IMG/VR virus record: IMGVR_UViG_3300020415_000001
Location: 1 to 31,873 of that record
Source of the DNA: a virus
Length of the DNA stretch: 31,873 bases
Direction: 5' to 3' (one strand)
In this document: piece after piece, positions 22,072 to 31,873 of the stretch
Position numbering within the stretch: the stretch's first letter is position 1
How the letters are laid out: each line of letters begins with the position of its first letter
The notes under the pieces: generated by a model
Seen by the model: only the letters and a program-made list of their open reading frames with translations
Databases searched by the model: none
What the model was told of the DNA's origin: nothing
Made by a program: the position numbers and the translations under genes

Positions 22072-22935
22072 TCAAAATCCGTCAATCGTAATCTCCGGGA
22101 CGTTTGGTTCCTTGGCAACCTTAGTAAGGTATCGAGGACCAGTGCTGTAGGCAAATCCACGTAGCGGGGTTCCTTGATCTTTGTAGCACCTAAACTTGTG
22201 TGCACAGTAGGAACAACCAACAGGAAGTTTCATGTTACCGCTCTTACCGTCAGGTACAGGCTCGTAACAAGGCTTCGGTGGCTCGTCGTTCTCAAGAACC
22301 TCTTTCAGTTCTTCGATACGAGGGGCCGGTTCGTGGTGTTCGATGACAATAGGTTTCAGTTCGCTGACGCAGATGTCTCCTGCGACCTTGTCGAACGCTA
22401 CCCAAGCTGCCGGTTTCTTAGGGGTCAACTCATGGGCGTACCCGGAGAGCTGGTAGACGTAACCAAAAGGATCGTCTTGTGTTACAGTGTCTTGCTCGAA
22501 TTTTTTATATCCGTAAGGGCTTGCCGATTTGACGTCCACAACGACACCATCAATGATCGCATCAATGTGGCCCTTGACACCGTTGACTTCAACTTCCCTT
22601 TGCTCGTCTGTGACTTCATGTCCTGCCTCTTTAATAAGGAACAGCAGCATTTCTTCAATAAGTGCGCCGTACATAAACTTGAGGTACGTCTTAGGTAGCA
22701 TAGCTTCCTTGGTCCCCTCTTCCGGGTGACCTTCGTACCACATCTGTCGGTTAGGTTTACCTAGTGCGGAGAAACGAAGAGGAGATCGGGCCTCCTGTTG
22801 CTTCTTCAAGCGGCTGCGGAACATTTCACGAACATTCTCACAGAACGCATCTAGGTTCTTTTCATCTACCTCGTGATCGACGTCAGGGTTGAACAAGTTG
22901 TAGACGTCAGTCGGTAGTGTTTCTAGCTTAGCCAA
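22072..22935 (-). CDS. PD-(D/E)XK exonuclease, Cas4/RecB-like with four cysteines
   Basis: The 287-residue product starts at TTG 22935, with GAAGAGGG 6 nt upstream. Nuclease core: E94 in YGALIEEML, H123 and D125 in GHIDAII, D134 and K136 in VVVDVKSAS, and Q162...Y166 in YQLSGYAH. C223, C241, C244 and C250 (CSYCAHKFRC) have the arrangement of the 4Fe-4S cluster in Cas4/AddB-type nucleases. It likely acts as the phage 5'-3' exonuclease (replacing T7 gp6), supplying recombination ends and degrading host DNA. It lies in one operon with resolvase and DEDDy exonuclease. Confidence 0.85.
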   Translation of the reverse strand: MAKLETLPTDVYNLFNPDVDHEVDEKNLDAFCENVREMFRSRLKKQQEARSPLRFSALGKPNRQMWYEGHPEEGTKEAMLPKTYLKFMYGALIEEMLLFLIKEAGHEVTDEQREVEVNGVKGHIDAIIDGVVVDVKSASPYGYKKFEQDTVTQDDPFGYVYQLSGYAHELTPKKPAAWVAFDKVAGDICVSELKPIVIEHHEPAPRIEELKEVLENDEPPKPCYEPVPDGKSGNMKLPVGCSYCAHKFRCYKDQGTPLRGFAYSTGPRYLTKVAKEPNVPEITIDGF

Positions 22936-23159
22936 TCTTTTCCCTCTTCTTCAATGAGCCTGACAACAGAAGTGTCAAGGTGTTCTCGGTTCTCGATGTA
23001 CACGTAGTCAACACCTTCAATGTCGTGACTCTCAGGGAACTGTTCGAGAACTCGTGTGGCCTTCTCTCGGGCCTCGTCTTCACTCTCCGCCAGTACGTTA
23101 ACAGAGACAGTGTCAAGCACCTCTCTACGTACCTCGGAAGTGAACCGATATTTATTCAT
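22923..23159 (-). CDS. Hypothetical 78-residue protein
   Basis: The product has a beta-alpha-beta pattern: YRFTSEVRREVLDTVSVNVL, then the helix SEDEAREKATRVLEQF (~26-41), then DYVYIENREH. This resembles small phage or plasmid proteins of the DpnD/PcfM type, but function is unknown. CGGAG lies 9 nt before the ATG. It is the first gene after the tRNA and structured region, and its end overlaps the exonuclease TTG start by 13 nt. Confidence 0.65.
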   Translation of the reverse strand: MNKYRFTSEVRREVLDTVSVNVLAESEDEAREKATRVLEQFPESHDIEGVDYVYIENREHLDTSVVRLIEEEGKDWLS

Positions 23160-23178
23160 TCGAGTTATCTCCGGTGGT

Positions 23179-23252
23179 TGGCGAGGGAGCAGGGATTTGA
23201 ACCCTGACTAACGGTTTTGGAGACCGTCGTGCTACCGTTACACTACTCCGAC
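23179..23252 (-). tRNA. tRNA-Trp (anticodon CCA), acceptor stem with two mismatches
   Basis: A full cloverleaf of 74 nt reads on the minus strand. The acceptor GTCGGAG faces CTCCCTC. The D-stem is GTGT/GCAC. The anticodon stem is ACGGT/ACCGT with loop CTCCAAA (anticodon CCA, tryptophan). The variable loop is 4 nt. The T-arm is CAGGG/CCCTG with loop TTCAAAT. The discriminator G73 is typical for bacterial tRNA-Trp, and the 3' CCA is encoded. Acceptor pairs 2-71 (U-U) and 3-70 (C-C) are mismatched, leaving five pairs. Confidence 0.88.
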
Positions 23253-23536
23253 CTTGGCCCCGAGGGCACACCTTTAGGGTGATACCTCGGGTAACTGGTG
23301 GGGTGGATTGTCATTCTTACTGTGGCGAACCCCGGTCTAAACCTCCACAGATCAGCCGGGTATTGGTCCCGCGTTTGACGAACTAATCAATCCCACGCTG
23401 TCGGTATCCACCCGGTCTACCTGTAAAACTGGACACCAGTAACGCTCACAGTGGCGCTCAATACTCATCCCGCGCTGGTGTACCCACGGGCGAGAAGCAC
23501 AGAGATAGATAGCTCTCCGTGCCCGACGACTAGACC
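23253..23536 (-). ncRNA. Candidate structured non-coding RNA between SSB and tRNA-Trp
   Basis: This 284-nt stretch has no open frame with a ribosome site, although nearly all neighbouring genes overlap. On the minus strand it can form: a 9-bp hairpin (23497-23505 with 23514-23522); a 7-bp stem (23433-23439 with 23475-23481); an 8-bp long-range helix (23301-23308 with 23406-23413) enclosing three smaller hairpins at 23371-23398, 23357-23371 and 23320-23350; and a 7-bp hairpin with an inner 4-bp stem (23259-23265 with 23285-23291). CACCA follows the long-range helix. A 9-nt direct repeat (CCCGGTCTA on the plus strand, 23331-23339 and 23411-23419) permits alternative pairing. It is probably transcribed with SSB and the tRNA. 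Whether it is a defined RNA or decayed tRNA sequence is unknown. Confidence 0.45.
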
Positions 23537-24214
23537 TTAGAAGGGGATGTCGTCGTCAAGGTCCTCAGGAGTGTCCTCCTTAACCTTGGTAGTCTTCTTA
23601 GGTGCAGCCTTAGCCTTCTTCGGCTTCGTCTCACCCTTCTCTGCATCCATAGCACCGAACTCGTCAGTCTCGTAACCTACGAGATCAGTAACTCGGACAG
23701 CAAGGACCCAGATACTCTTCTTCTTACCCTTACCCCAGTCTACGATCTTAAGCTTGAGGTCAGCCTTAGAGCCGTTACCGATAAGTCGGTCTTCCGGCCA
23801 CTGTTCATTGTCCTCGTCGTAGATACGGATGGGGGCGTTCTTCTCACCTTCGTAGTTCAACTCAGGCTTACGGAGAACAAGGAAGCGACCCTTGTCAGGG
23901 TTCTTCGCGTCTTCCTTTTCTTTCAGTCGGTCGAGGAGGCCCTCTTCCTTAAGGAACTCAGTGTCCTCAGGTTCGAACTCCATCGTCCACTCTTTGGCAG
24001 TACCCTCGTAGTTGTTGGTGAGGGCACGTTCGCCTACGATCTTTGGCCAAAACAGGCGGCCACTTGCGAAAACTGTTTTCGATTCCATCTTATCTTTTCT
24101 CTTTTCAATTTTCTTTTGGTTTGCCCATCGACGGGCTTTAGCGTAAGGTGAGTAATAGTCTATTGGTCTTTCCCAGTAGAACTCACTCATGTCGTCGAAG
24201 TCTATGTAATCCAT
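23537..24214 (-). CDS. Single-stranded DNA-binding protein, T7 gp2.5-like
   Basis: The 225-residue product has a core OB-fold region (~45-190). VFASGRLFWPKIVGE, the FLVLRKPELN strand, and DRLIGNGSKADLKLKIVDW followed by IWVLAVRVTDLVGYE parallel T7 gp2.5 (IIGGGSKLKVKYSL...). A Lys-rich linker and an acidic tail end in DDDIPF; the C-terminal aromatic residue is the docking element for polymerase and helicase in T7. From ATG 24214 it has a 42-residue N-terminal extension rich in Tyr/Trp/Lys not found in gp2.5; Met43 (24088) would give the minimal SSB. The first ATG is favoured because TAAGGAG (spacing 3) and a strong promoter lie directly upstream. Confidence 0.85.
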   Translation of the reverse strand: MDYIDFDDMSEFYWERPIDYYSPYAKARRWANQKKIEKRKDKMESKTVFASGRLFWPKIVGERALTNNYEGTAKEWTMEFEPEDTEFLKEEGLLDRLKEKEDAKNPDKGRFLVLRKPELNYEGEKNAPIRIYDEDNEQWPEDRLIGNGSKADLKLKIVDWGKGKKKSIWVLAVRVTDLVGYETDEFGAMDAEKGETKPKKAKAAPKKTTKVKEDTPEDLDDDIPF

Positions 24215-24236: not shown

Positions 24237-24264
24237 AGTATAACACATTTTCAGAATTTGTCAA
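24237..24264 (-). promoter_or_regulatory. Sigma70-type promoter upstream of SSB
   Basis: On the minus strand the -35 is TTGACA (24264-24259), followed by a 16-bp spacer and the -10 TATACT (24242-24237). The predicted start is about 24230, only ~16 nt ahead of the SSB ATG. The -35 begins just after the stop of the 56-residue gene. It should be read by host RNA polymerase and drive SSB, the structured region, tRNA and the leftward operon. Confidence 0.8.
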
Positions 24265-29686: not shown

Positions 29687-29815
29687 TTACTGAATACCTC
29701 CAAGGTTCCAAAGAGCGCGGATGTAAAGAGTCGCTTCAAATATTGAATACGATATGGCAACGACAAGTAGAGCGAGAGCACACCCCACTGTCCCGCTTCC
29801 GTTATTGTGCGACAT
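29687..29815 (-). CDS. 42-residue membrane microprotein after ATP-grasp
   Basis: The frame starts at ATG 29815, inside the ATP-grasp 3' end (14-nt overlap), with AAGGAG 10 nt upstream. A Gly/Asn-rich start (MSHNNGSGTVG) is followed by a transmembrane helix CALALLVVAISYSIFEATLYI and a short tail. A single-span protein tied by overlap to the ligase pair may anchor or act with them; this is inference. Confidence 0.6.
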   Translation of the reverse strand: MSHNNGSGTVGCALALLVVAISYSIFEATLYIRALWNLGGIQ

Positions 29816-30602
29816 TTTCAAAAAACTCCTTGTAGTCTGTGACTGTCGAACCTTCGAGGCCCGGAGCCGTGTTGATTTCCAAGACGTAAGCCTTGGCTTC
29901 ACTCTCGTTCCAGATGACATCGACTGCGCCGAAGTCCAGATCGAGTTCCTTGAGCACGTCCTTGGCAACCTTAAGCACACTGGCCGGAGGGTTGACGTCA
30001 GAGCGAGCGTAGATGAACCCGTTGGCGTGGTTACGAACCTGCCAGTTGGGGTCCGGGTGTTCGAGACGGCGCTTCTTCTGCTGGACAGAGATAACACTGT
30101 ACACTACTTCACCCTCCACTCCGATAGCCGTTGCAGTGCCGACACCGAAGTCAACCCAACGACGGCCTACGTGGACGCGGTACTCGTGCTTCTTCTTCAC
30201 GTACTCCGTGTAGAGAGAGCAAGGCACGAGAGAACTGCGATCAGCAGCCATAACGATACCAGCACCGCTGTGTCCTTGTAGAATTTGGCGGCAAACCACA
30301 GGGAAAGCATCCTCGGGTATATCTTCTTGGCTAGTCCAGAAACGCGGGAGGTAGTCTTTACCCGCCAGCTTTTCAAAGAATGCTCGCTTATTCGTAGCTT
30401 GTGCAAGTCTCTCTCCGTTGTTGTTCAGGGTAGCCCGAGAAGCCTCGGTACTGTTACCCCAGTTAATGATAACGTCAGAAGACCGAGGAACAAACTTGCT
30501 GTCCTCGACCTTCAACACCTTCCCGTTAAGGGCGGTCGCAAGAGCTTTCGCCCCGCGACTACCCTGTTTGTACGGGAGTACTCGTACTCTTCGGTTTACC
30601 AA
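29802..30602 (-). CDS. ATP-grasp carboxylate-amine ligase
   Basis: The 266-residue product starts at TTG 30602, overlapping the amidoligase stop by 7 nt; AAGGAG lies 7 nt upstream. ATP-grasp features: K73 (TNKRAFFEKLA), glycine-rich loop QGHSGAGIVM (~109-118), E133 (YTEYVKKK), Y141/R142 (HEYRVHV), D228 (FGAVDVIW), and metal ligands E242/N244 in YVLEINTAPGLEGSTV. Such enzymes activate a carboxylate as acyl-phosphate and join it to an amine, as in peptide or amino-acid ligation. With the adjacent amidoligase it forms a pair known from phages and thought to modify peptides, cell wall or proteins. No transmembrane segment. Confidence 0.88.
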   Translation of the reverse strand: MVNRRVRVLPYKQGSRGAKALATALNGKVLKVEDSKFVPRSSDVIINWGNSTEASRATLNNNGERLAQATNKRAFFEKLAGKDYLPRFWTSQEDIPEDAFPVVCRQILQGHSGAGIVMAADRSSLVPCSLYTEYVKKKHEYRVHVGRRWVDFGVGTATAIGVEGEVVYSVISVQQKKRRLEHPDPNWQVRNHANGFIYARSDVNPPASVLKVAKDVLKELDLDFGAVDVIWNESEAKAYVLEINTAPGLEGSTVTDYKEFFENVAQ

Positions 30603-31666
30603 ATGTCGTCTCCTTCGTGTTGCGGAACAGGAGTGGCGATGGCCTGTTGTGCTTCTTCAAGATACTGCATGTATTCGTTGAAGTTGGTAGGCTGCTCATT
30701 AAGAGTCGTCTTCTTCTTGATCCGCCTCCCAAACGGGTCCATCTTCACCTTTTCCGGGTTGAACTTACTCCAGTCCCGACAGTAGCAAAGGTCCTGAGCG
30801 AGGCGAATACCTTCGTACACAGAGGCCATAACCTGCTGGTGGTCGAACCCCGACCCCTGTACAATCGTGTTGGTGTGAGGGCCAAGCACGGTGTTAAGGT
30901 AGTCGAGAGGGCCAGCACCGGAGAAACCTTCGACAACCAGACGAGGGTCAGTGTAGTCTCCACTGATCTCGTAGATACGCTGCAAGATACTTACCCAAGT
31001 CTTGATAGTCTCGGGGTCGGTGGCACCTCGCAACGAGCGTACCTCAATCGAGCCGAACTTAGTCAACGAGTGACAGTTAAGACCAGCGTAGTGCATACCC
31101 TGAGAGGGTAGGTCCTTGCCGTCGCTTGCAATGAAGTCACGAATCTGGGCGACGATGTTCGTAGCGTCCTTGGAACGCAAACAGAACAGGTTGCCGACCC
31201 GGTGTTCACCACACCACTCAGTGAGGAGTTCCTCGACAGAGAAGTACAGAGCAAGGAAAGAGGTCAACCTGTTGAGGTGCCAGCCCTGTGCGTTCAAGTG
31301 GACGTGAACCGAGGTACGGTTGCTGTCGTCCAGCTTCGAACCGTAGTCCTTGAACATCTTCCACAGATCGTCGAGAGCCTTGTCAACCTCCGAGAACTTG
31401 ATAGGTCGTGCCAAGATGTACTCAGCGTTGTCCTGTCCACGGAGAGAACCGTCAGGCGTGTACTTCCACTGCTTGGGAATGAGCTTCTCGTCTTTCTCGG
31501 TGCCGTAAGGGGAACCCTTCGGGAACTTGTTGCCTTCGACCTCGATCTCAAGGCCCACGTCACCCTTGGTAGTGCGGTGACCCATCATAGCACCAATGTT
31601 GTAGCTGGGTTCGTCCTTCTCAGCGGAACGCTTGAAGAAGTCGGACGGAATCGGTACTCTACTCAT
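30596..31666 (-). CDS. Amidoligase (glutamine synthetase-fold COOH-NH2 ligase)
   Basis: The 356-residue product starts at ATG 31666, chosen because AAGGA lies 8 nt upstream; an in-frame ATG at 31732 overlaps the preceding gene. Motifs of the amidoligase_2 family are present: GLEIEVEG (metal/ATP-binding glutamates, near 38-45), TPDGSLR...AEYILARP (~71-89), SVHVHLN (~119-125), YAGLN (~193-197) and GSIEVRSLRG (~205-214). These place ATP and the substrate carboxylate in a glutamine-synthetase-like pocket. It probably forms an amide bond between an amino acid and an unknown acceptor, with the downstream ATP-grasp enzyme adding or processing another residue. The C-terminal ~80 residues have no clear motif. 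Confidence 0.86.
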   Translation of the reverse strand: MSRVPIPSDFFKRSAEKDEPSYNIGAMMGHRTTKGDVGLEIEVEGNKFPKGSPYGTEKDEKLIPKQWKYTPDGSLRGQDNAEYILARPIKFSEVDKALDDLWKMFKDYGSKLDDSNRTSVHVHLNAQGWHLNRLTSFLALYFSVEELLTEWCGEHRVGNLFCLRSKDATNIVAQIRDFIASDGKDLPSQGMHYAGLNCHSLTKFGSIEVRSLRGATDPETIKTWVSILQRIYEISGDYTDPRLVVEGFSGAGPLDYLNTVLGPHTNTIVQGSGFDHQQVMASVYEGIRLAQDLCYCRDWSKFNPEKVKMDPFGRRIKKKTTLNEQPTNFNEYMQYLEEAQQAIATPVPQHEGDDIW

Positions 31667-31691
31667 TCTCAGTTTCCTTCTTTCTTGTAGT

Positions 31692-31873
31692 TTATTTCTG
31701 AATCTCGATAGTTTCAAAGACACCCAGTTCATCGGTTACCTCTCGGCAGTGGCCGTAACCACGAGCCAGCACCAGTCGAGAGAGGTCGCCGTTGGGCATG
31801 AACCCTACCACGTCTTCCTTGTAAGCGAGGAACATCATGTCGAGAGGTCCCCGCAGGATTGCAAACTCGCGGT
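31692..31873 (-). CDS. Partial gene upstream of amidoligase (C-terminal end only)
   Basis: An open frame enters from the right edge and ends at 31692 after 59 visible residues, including FAILRGPLDMMFLAYKEDVV, then GFMPNGDLSRLVLARGYGHC and an acidic end. It is 25 nt upstream of the amidoligase start, in the same operon. Known phage amidoligase/ATP-grasp pairs are sometimes accompanied by a class II glutamine amidotransferase; the visible part is too short to tell whether this is one. Confidence 0.6.
   Translation of the reverse strand, partial: REFAILRGPLDMMFLAYKEDVVGFMPNGDLSRLVLARGYGHCREVTDELGVFETIEIQK

Follow-up and report, generated by a model that had tools for sequence, protein, structure and literature searches.

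Two conserved, covarying candidate RNA pseudoknots between the SSB-like and exonuclease genes of uncultured phages

STAXI is a repeat of one pseudoknot, found in Enterobacteriales near SSB and other DNA-handling genes (PMC2864571). In the gene 32 operator of phages T4 and RB69, gp32 binds a pseudoknot, behind which comes a less structured ribosome-binding region (PMC535899). Theta (HDV-like) ribozymes are small pseudoknotted phage RNAs that lie beside tRNAs and have their cleavage site at the tRNA 3' end (PMC10879173), and the manA and wcaG riboswitch candidates are structured cis elements of uncultured marine phages (PMC2864571). The sequence analysed here, referred to as the window, is the whole of an IMG/VR virus record of 31,873 nt, and carries two predicted pseudoknotted elements, A and B, in the gap at 23253-23536. 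As in STAXI, pseudoknot modules occur here in tandem near SSB and DNA-handling genes; unlike STAXI, they are different motifs, found in uncultured phages, each once per contig. Over 23150-23600 the STAXI model (RF01728) finds nothing at E up to 10, and it has no match in relatives; we treat STAXI as the nearest descriptive precedent, without claiming membership. The T4 gene 32 operator may be seen as the nearest mechanistic precedent, again with no membership claimed. Both belong to a phage SSB operon, and a pseudoknot lies 5' of the ribosome-binding region in all seven A relatives outside the window clade. However, the pseudoknot here lies behind the SSB gene and ahead of exonuclease genes, with a tRNA in between in the window, and A differs from the operator in its additional hairpin and conserved unpaired bases; SSB binding to A is putative.

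The other described systems are more distant. Unlike theta ribozymes, A and B of the window lie 5' of the tRNA, and the predicted folds are not HDV-like: in A the 5' strand of P2 abuts the 3' strand of P1, with no P3 hairpin between them, and in B the strand order differs. GOLLD and ROOL RNAs are also non-coding RNAs near phage tRNAs, but they are much longer, whereas A and B are two small independent motifs (~70 and 80-145 nt); an initial annotation had named them as a precedent, noting their greater length, but Rfam gives no match to either even at E up to 10. The manA and wcaG candidates have different structures, and the gap elements have no Rfam match to them. In Rfam 15 only tRNA matches convincingly (window searched to E 10, relatives to E 3; at gathering thresholds the window gives tRNA only), and no description of motif A or B was found in the literature searched. 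As judged from their sequences, A and B are new RNA motifs within a known broad kind, the phage cis-acting pseudoknots.

The locus and its relatives

The plus strand of the window encodes structural and lysis genes, and the minus strand replication and nucleotide-metabolism genes, namely primase/helicase, family-A DNA polymerase, an SSB-like protein, a Cas4-domain exonuclease, an endonuclease and a class II ribonucleotide reductase (RNR). The nearest cultured relatives are cobavirus-type podoviruses, among them roseophage SIO1, Lentibacter phage ICBM1 and Celeribacter phage P12053L, at ~40-44% protein identity. The replication arm (polymerase, SSB-like, Cas4 exonuclease, endonuclease, class II RNR) has the same order in all three, and in this gene order the window genome looks Zobellviridae/Cobavirinae-like. 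Elsewhere in the window, adjoining genes at 29802-30602 and 30596-31732 encode a ribosomal protein S6 glutaminyl-transferase-like protein and an amidoligase.

The gap has no coding frame, stops breaking all six frames on both strands as first described, and is flanked by the SSB-like gene and tRNA-Trp. Reading along the minus strand, the order is hairpin H1, element A, element B, hairpin H2 and tRNA-Trp (Table 1). The SSB-like protein of the window has no match in Pfam or PHROG when searched alone; in an alignment of its family, six members match phrog_18154 (SSB) and three match phrog_112 (gp2.5-like), and its predicted fold (mean pLDDT 74.5) has T7 gp2.5 as best match (1je5, E 1.4e-6), with Enc34 SSB also matched. 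The 78-aa small ORF downstream of the gap has no Pfam or PHROG family match, and relatives of it are present in six other loci (L002, L003, L004, L007, L008 and L010). Degenerate tRNAs concealed in the gap were considered and ruled out, ARAGORN and Rfam giving tRNA-Trp alone.

The promoter upstream of the SSB-like gene has counterparts of the TTGACA/TATAAT type at the same place in L003, L004, L007, L009 and L010, where the surrounding sequence has diverged. A promoter-like site was looked for within the gap itself (23253-23536) and none was found. The best reading is that the gap would be part of the SSB-operon transcript. In most of these loci, the strong host-type sigma-70 promoter is followed by a similar UAAGGUAAG leader.

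When the SSB-like protein and the exonuclease were used as queries, well over 100 loci from uncultured phages (given L numbers here) were returned, and in most of them the interval between the two genes contains non-coding sequence. Comparison with uncultured cobavirus-like phages separates the gap into independently occurring modules, since other phages carry either A or B alone. The gap therefore consists of at least two independent motifs. Of the single structured minus-strand RNA proposed in the initial annotation, covariation supports the structure and the strand, but not the idea of one large RNA, since A and B are independent. Outside these loci, neither element was found in nucleotide searches of 50,697 phage records, a plasmid search made with B only gave nothing, and a search of genome contigs returned three distant exonuclease relatives only, all lacking A and B. 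Both elements are absent from cultured relatives with the same gene order, and are thus dispensable in principle.

Table 1. Features of the window in and around the gap at 23253-23536 (sequences as minus-strand RNA; promoter as DNA).
Feature	Position	Strand	Description
Sigma-70-type promoter	24237..24264	-	TTGACA-N16-TATACT, TG before -10; upstream of SSB-like gene; 11/12 consensus matches
SSB-like gene	23537..24214	-	T7 gp2.5-like single-stranded DNA-binding protein, 225 aa, acidic tail DDDIPF; upstream of gap
Hairpin H1	23497..23522	-	GCACGGAG..CUCUGUGC; 5' side of gap; z = -3.8
Element A	23425..23495	-	Predicted H-type pseudoknot with inserted hairpin; model R1 88.4 bits; clade-free profile E 5.5e-10; covariation
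A P1, 5' strand	23485..23490	-	CCCGUG; pairs with 23469-23474
A P1, 3' strand	23469..23474	-	CGCGGG; pairs with 23485-23490
A P2 (pseudoknot), 5' strand	23475..23481	-	ACACCAG; loop strand; pairs with 23433-23439
A P2 (pseudoknot), 3' strand	23433..23439	-	CUGGUGU; downstream strand; pairs with 23475-23481
A unpaired AGUA	23462..23465	-	Invariant in seed alignments
A P3, variable hairpin	23441..23458	-	AGCGC..GCGUU; hairpin of differing sequence in all members
Element B	23292..23422	-	Conserved core, internal loop, second stem-loop, predicted pseudoknot; model R2 106.2 bits; clade-free profile E 2.2e-12
B P1, 5' strand	23411..23422	-	AGGU-AGA-CCGGG; pairs with 23349-23360
B P1, 3' strand	23349..23360	-	CCCGG-CUG-AUCU; pairs with 23411-23422
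B S3, 5' strand	23345..23348	-	GUGG; pairs with 23322-23325
B S3, 3' strand	23322..23325	-	CCAC; pairs with 23345-23348
B pseudoknot, 5' strand	23329..23333	-	GGGGU; pairs with 23300-23304
B pseudoknot, 3' strand	23300..23304	-	ACCCC; pairs with 23329-23333
B unpaired AGUAAGAAUGACAA	23308..23321	-	AGURAGARYGAC-AA pattern in 8/9 members
Hairpin H2	23259..23291	-	CCCGAGG..CCUCGGG; directly before tRNA, without U tract; z = -3.6
tRNA-Trp (CCA)	23179..23252	-	ARAGORN; Rfam RF00005 57.4 bits
Small ORF, 78 aa	22923..23159	-	Downstream of gap; conserved between RNA interval and exonuclease
Cas4-domain exonuclease	22072..22935	-	Downstream gene; phrog_1990 E 1.9e-38

Structure and conservation of elements A and B

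The perfect stems listed at the outset, of 9 bp (23497-23522), 7 bp (23433-23481), 8 bp (23301-23413) and 7 bp (23259-23291), are all present, as is the 9-nt repeat TAGACCGGG. One of these stems, the 7-bp one at 23433-23481, corresponds to pseudoknot helix P2, which is conserved in element A. Relative to shuffled sequences, the folding energy of the whole minus strand of the gap has z = -2.11 (3/200 shuffles), against z = -1.10 for the plus strand. This excess is carried only by the two flanking hairpins; the core elements A and B fold at the level of shuffled sequence (z = 0.14 and -0.20), since their helices are pseudoknotted and are overlooked by minimum-energy folding. Comparison of minus-strand energy with shuffles, proposed initially as a check, would thus have discarded real elements. 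H1 is retained in L004, where G-C replaces an A-U pair, and H2 has a near-identical copy in L004 only. The evidence that the gap is structured is comparative: homologous phages carry compensatory base changes in both A and B.

Element A has 10 distinct members (the window, L003/L016, L035, L055, L057, L058, L064, L065, L075 and L177); L004/L015 are counted with the window, to which they are identical over the element apart from the last base. A was aligned by model and by hand because the MAFFT alignment was poor. In helix P1, four of the six pairs change on both sides across members and the fifth is always U.G. In the hand alignment of the predicted pseudoknot helix P2, one pair takes the forms CG, AU, GC, GU and UA. 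The both-side-changed cells of P2 number 17, and those of the element's helices together 38 (at 13 positions, against 12.3 expected); each count was reached by 0/5000 shuffles, tests that are inflated by related sequences, and of which the clade-free profile test described below is independent. P3 is weaker evidence, as it was picked by hand in each sequence. The fixed unpaired nucleotides are AGUA and UUA. Taken as minus-strand RNA, A has 171 paired cells, of which 26 are G.U, and one pair is U.G in 10/10 members. We therefore assign A to this strand, since the invariant U.G would become A.C on the other.

Model R1 for A was built from five sequences without P2. Among 453,700 bases, it recovers three members at E 4e-5 to 2e-4 (L058, L075 and L057); L055 and L065 also come up where they should, but weakly. 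Pairing in P1 and P3 reaches 92.7% when the members are aligned to the model, compared with 28-57% for slid versions. A broad pattern scan for A was discarded, as it returned mostly unrelated phages without the rest of the element; a stricter pattern returned known members only.

Element B has nine members (the window, L020, L036, L097, L098, L164, L183 and the held-out L218 and L220). Its core comprises AGGU-AGA-CCGGG ... CCCGG-CUG-AYCU, a stem-loop of the form nnGG/CCnn, the stretch AGURAGARYGACAA, and a strand whose pairing partner lies back in the loop. P1, the outer helix, is conserved, yet uninformative on pairing, since it is near-invariant in the nine members. Support for pairing comes from both-side changes in stem S3 (GU/AC, UA/UA, CA/UG and GU/AU among members) and in the predicted pseudoknot (GUGGGC/GCCCAC, GCGGG/CCCGC and GGGGC/GCCCC in other members). 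Model R2 scores the held-out members at 90.3 bits (L218) and 46.1 bits (L220), values that show fit of the whole element, not unbiased discovery, as both were found by sequence pattern. Without the variable hairpin, which is missing from the L218 copy, the core comes down to a minimum of ~75 nt. A pattern match in L096 was rejected, the rest of the element being absent.

Models R1 and R2 each give a single convincing hit per contig, located where expected, and profiles built without the window clade (for B, without the window and L097) still recover the window (Table 1). At the sequence level, A and B are thus shown to be minus-strand RNA structures that are conserved and covary, found in differing combinations between SSB-like and small-ORF or exonuclease genes.

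Position of the elements and their possible roles

Each of the seven A copies that lie beyond the window clade (L035, L055, L057, L058, L064, L065 and L075) ends ~15-25 nt before a start codon. B ends ~17-20 nt before an ATG in L097 and L183, with a purine-rich, ribosome-binding-site-like stretch between; start codons of L057, L058 and L183 were read from downstream sequence, automated ORF detection having given a later ORF for L057 and L058. In two unrelated phage contigs, B lies 112 nt before the start of a YqaJ exonuclease (L218) or precedes a family-A DNA polymerase (L220). In L035 and L057, A comes after tRNA-Trp. A tRNA or tRNA-like sequence lies between A and the next gene in L003 and L004, and a tRNA-like one in L177. 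The tRNA-like sequences directly after A at L003:4690-4790 and L177:2600-2690 have normal-looking D and T arms and abnormal anticodon arms, and are negative with ARAGORN.

Because A and B are placed before ribosome-binding sites, the YqaJ exonuclease and DNA polymerase A, we tentatively favour their being cis-acting intercistronic control elements in an SSB-exonuclease operon. The SSB-operon transcript would then carry two independent cis-acting pseudoknots, two plain hairpins and a tRNA, and A and B would act in cis on the mRNA, setting the translation (or processing) of downstream DNA-metabolism genes. The pseudoknot would most likely be the recognition site for an early-infection protein, for which the gp2.5-like SSB itself or the small-ORF product is our guess. 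The bound protein would cover or expose the start region next to it, in the manner of T4 gp32 on its own message. The elements of the window have become stacked, with the tRNA between the stack and the next gene. Here A ends ~270 nt and B ~140 nt before the next start codon, and given these distances and the intervening tRNA, a direct effect on the next ribosome-binding site is hard to see without processing. Further observations count against this reading: different motifs stacked before one gene (the window, L020, L036 and L098) are unlike simple operators, the elements follow the SSB gene whereas the T4 operator precedes it, and cultured relatives do without both elements.

It is less likely, but deserves weight, that the structures serve mRNA stability or processing, with pseudoknots and hairpins protecting the SSB message against exonucleases at its 3' end, or marking where SSB mRNA is to be cut apart from the tRNA and exonuclease mRNA. 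SSB is required in large amounts, the elements often begin directly after the SSB stop codon and are stacked, the window tRNA that follows them must be cut out, and both plain hairpins are very stable. Such a role, however, needs no conserved unpaired core, whereas B keeps ~14 unpaired nucleotides and A keeps AGUA and UUA; nor is B directly behind the SSB gene in L218 and L220.

The unpaired conserved nucleotides, of B especially, resemble a binding pocket, and could belong to a riboswitch sensing a metabolite (perhaps a nucleotide) and controlling DNA polymerase and exonuclease genes. The B core is indeed highly conserved and occurs before different DNA-metabolism genes in unrelated contexts, but no known riboswitch family matches in Rfam, there are just nine B members, A and B are stacked before the same gene, and nothing hints at a ligand, making this improbable. 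A cobalamin riboswitch, an idea prompted by the string GCCACUG in A, which we take to resemble a B12-riboswitch segment, together with the B12-type reductase of the phage, was rejected, having neither an Rfam match nor a B12-box.

Discrete modules stacked beside tRNA genes and shuffled between phages might also suggest trans-acting small RNAs or decoys, released with the tRNA and occupying, for example, a host nuclease or defence protein. The near-constant spacing to the start codon in the seven A members points instead to cis action, and the gap has no promoter-like site of its own; we consider trans action quite improbable. A single-stranded DNA structure, acting as a replication or recombination signal as was once considered for STAXI pseudoknots, would suit neighbours that handle DNA, but is very improbable given that the G.U cells of A, one of them invariant, fall on one strand only and that the promoter orientation agrees with that strand. 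An equally slight chance is left to one large, tRNA-linked ornate RNA of GOLLD/ROOL type or a switch between two folds, for the window does contain stems and a repeat, but A and B occur apart in relatives, Rfam gives no match, and the features on which an enlarged tRNA-like outline and mutually exclusive pairings had been proposed are not conserved, leaving both unsupported (8-bp long-range helix in 2/9 B members; CACCA end in 2/9, the window and one relative; second TAGACCGGG copy in 1/9, the window alone).

Other motifs at the junction and their meaning

Several other RNA-like motifs were seen in the same interval. A further pseudoknot motif, CCCU..GAAUGGUAGGAUAA..GAGGGCCUACC, occurs at the same junction in seven loci (L005:1787, L009:4712, L017:1835, L027:1024, L033:2185, L048:2113 and L162:2084), and its second helix covaries (GAGAGG/CCTCTC, GGTAGG/CCTACC, GATAGG/CCTATC, GGAAGG/CCTTCC, GGTAAG/CTTACC and GCCAAG/CTTGGC). 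A ~140-nt RNA-like motif ending CCCAGYRGGUGRAAGGCCYRC lies just before the ribosome-binding site in L024, L025, L041, L044, L049, L053, L098, L162 and L164. A very short H-type pseudoknot, GAGACCUGAGCA..GUCUC..AAACUGCUCA, is found in the SSB-exonuclease interval of L061, L063, L068, L070 and L077, and an apparent pseudoknot formed by CCCGUGUUUGUCCGAGCGGG and a downstream AUCGGAC in L018, L020, L048, L143, L173 and L202, in tandem with B in L020. By eye, small ORFs resembling HNH homing endonucleases lie in or beside the interval in L022, L056, L082 and L177, and are a possible cause of module shuffling.

A broader proposal, which we hold as doubtful, is that the SSB-exonuclease interval in this large group of uncultured phages may be a site where pseudoknotted control RNAs are interchangeable cassettes. 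These would include at least A, B and motif II, with three more picked out by eye, and every one would be a new RNA class. Relatives would exchange them, and a phage protein or metabolite would read them, timing the DNA replication and recombination genes.

The two conserved, covarying structures, which have no Rfam family, add to the few RNA control elements listed for phages, and their case shows that screens of minimum free energy against shuffles overlook elements of this kind. Uncultured phages have retained A and B and reshuffled them between DNA-replication genes, probably as a control on expression of the genes that follow. Their recurrent placement at an operon junction offers a direct route to asking whether phage SSBs besides T4 gp32 regulate translation via RNA pseudoknots.
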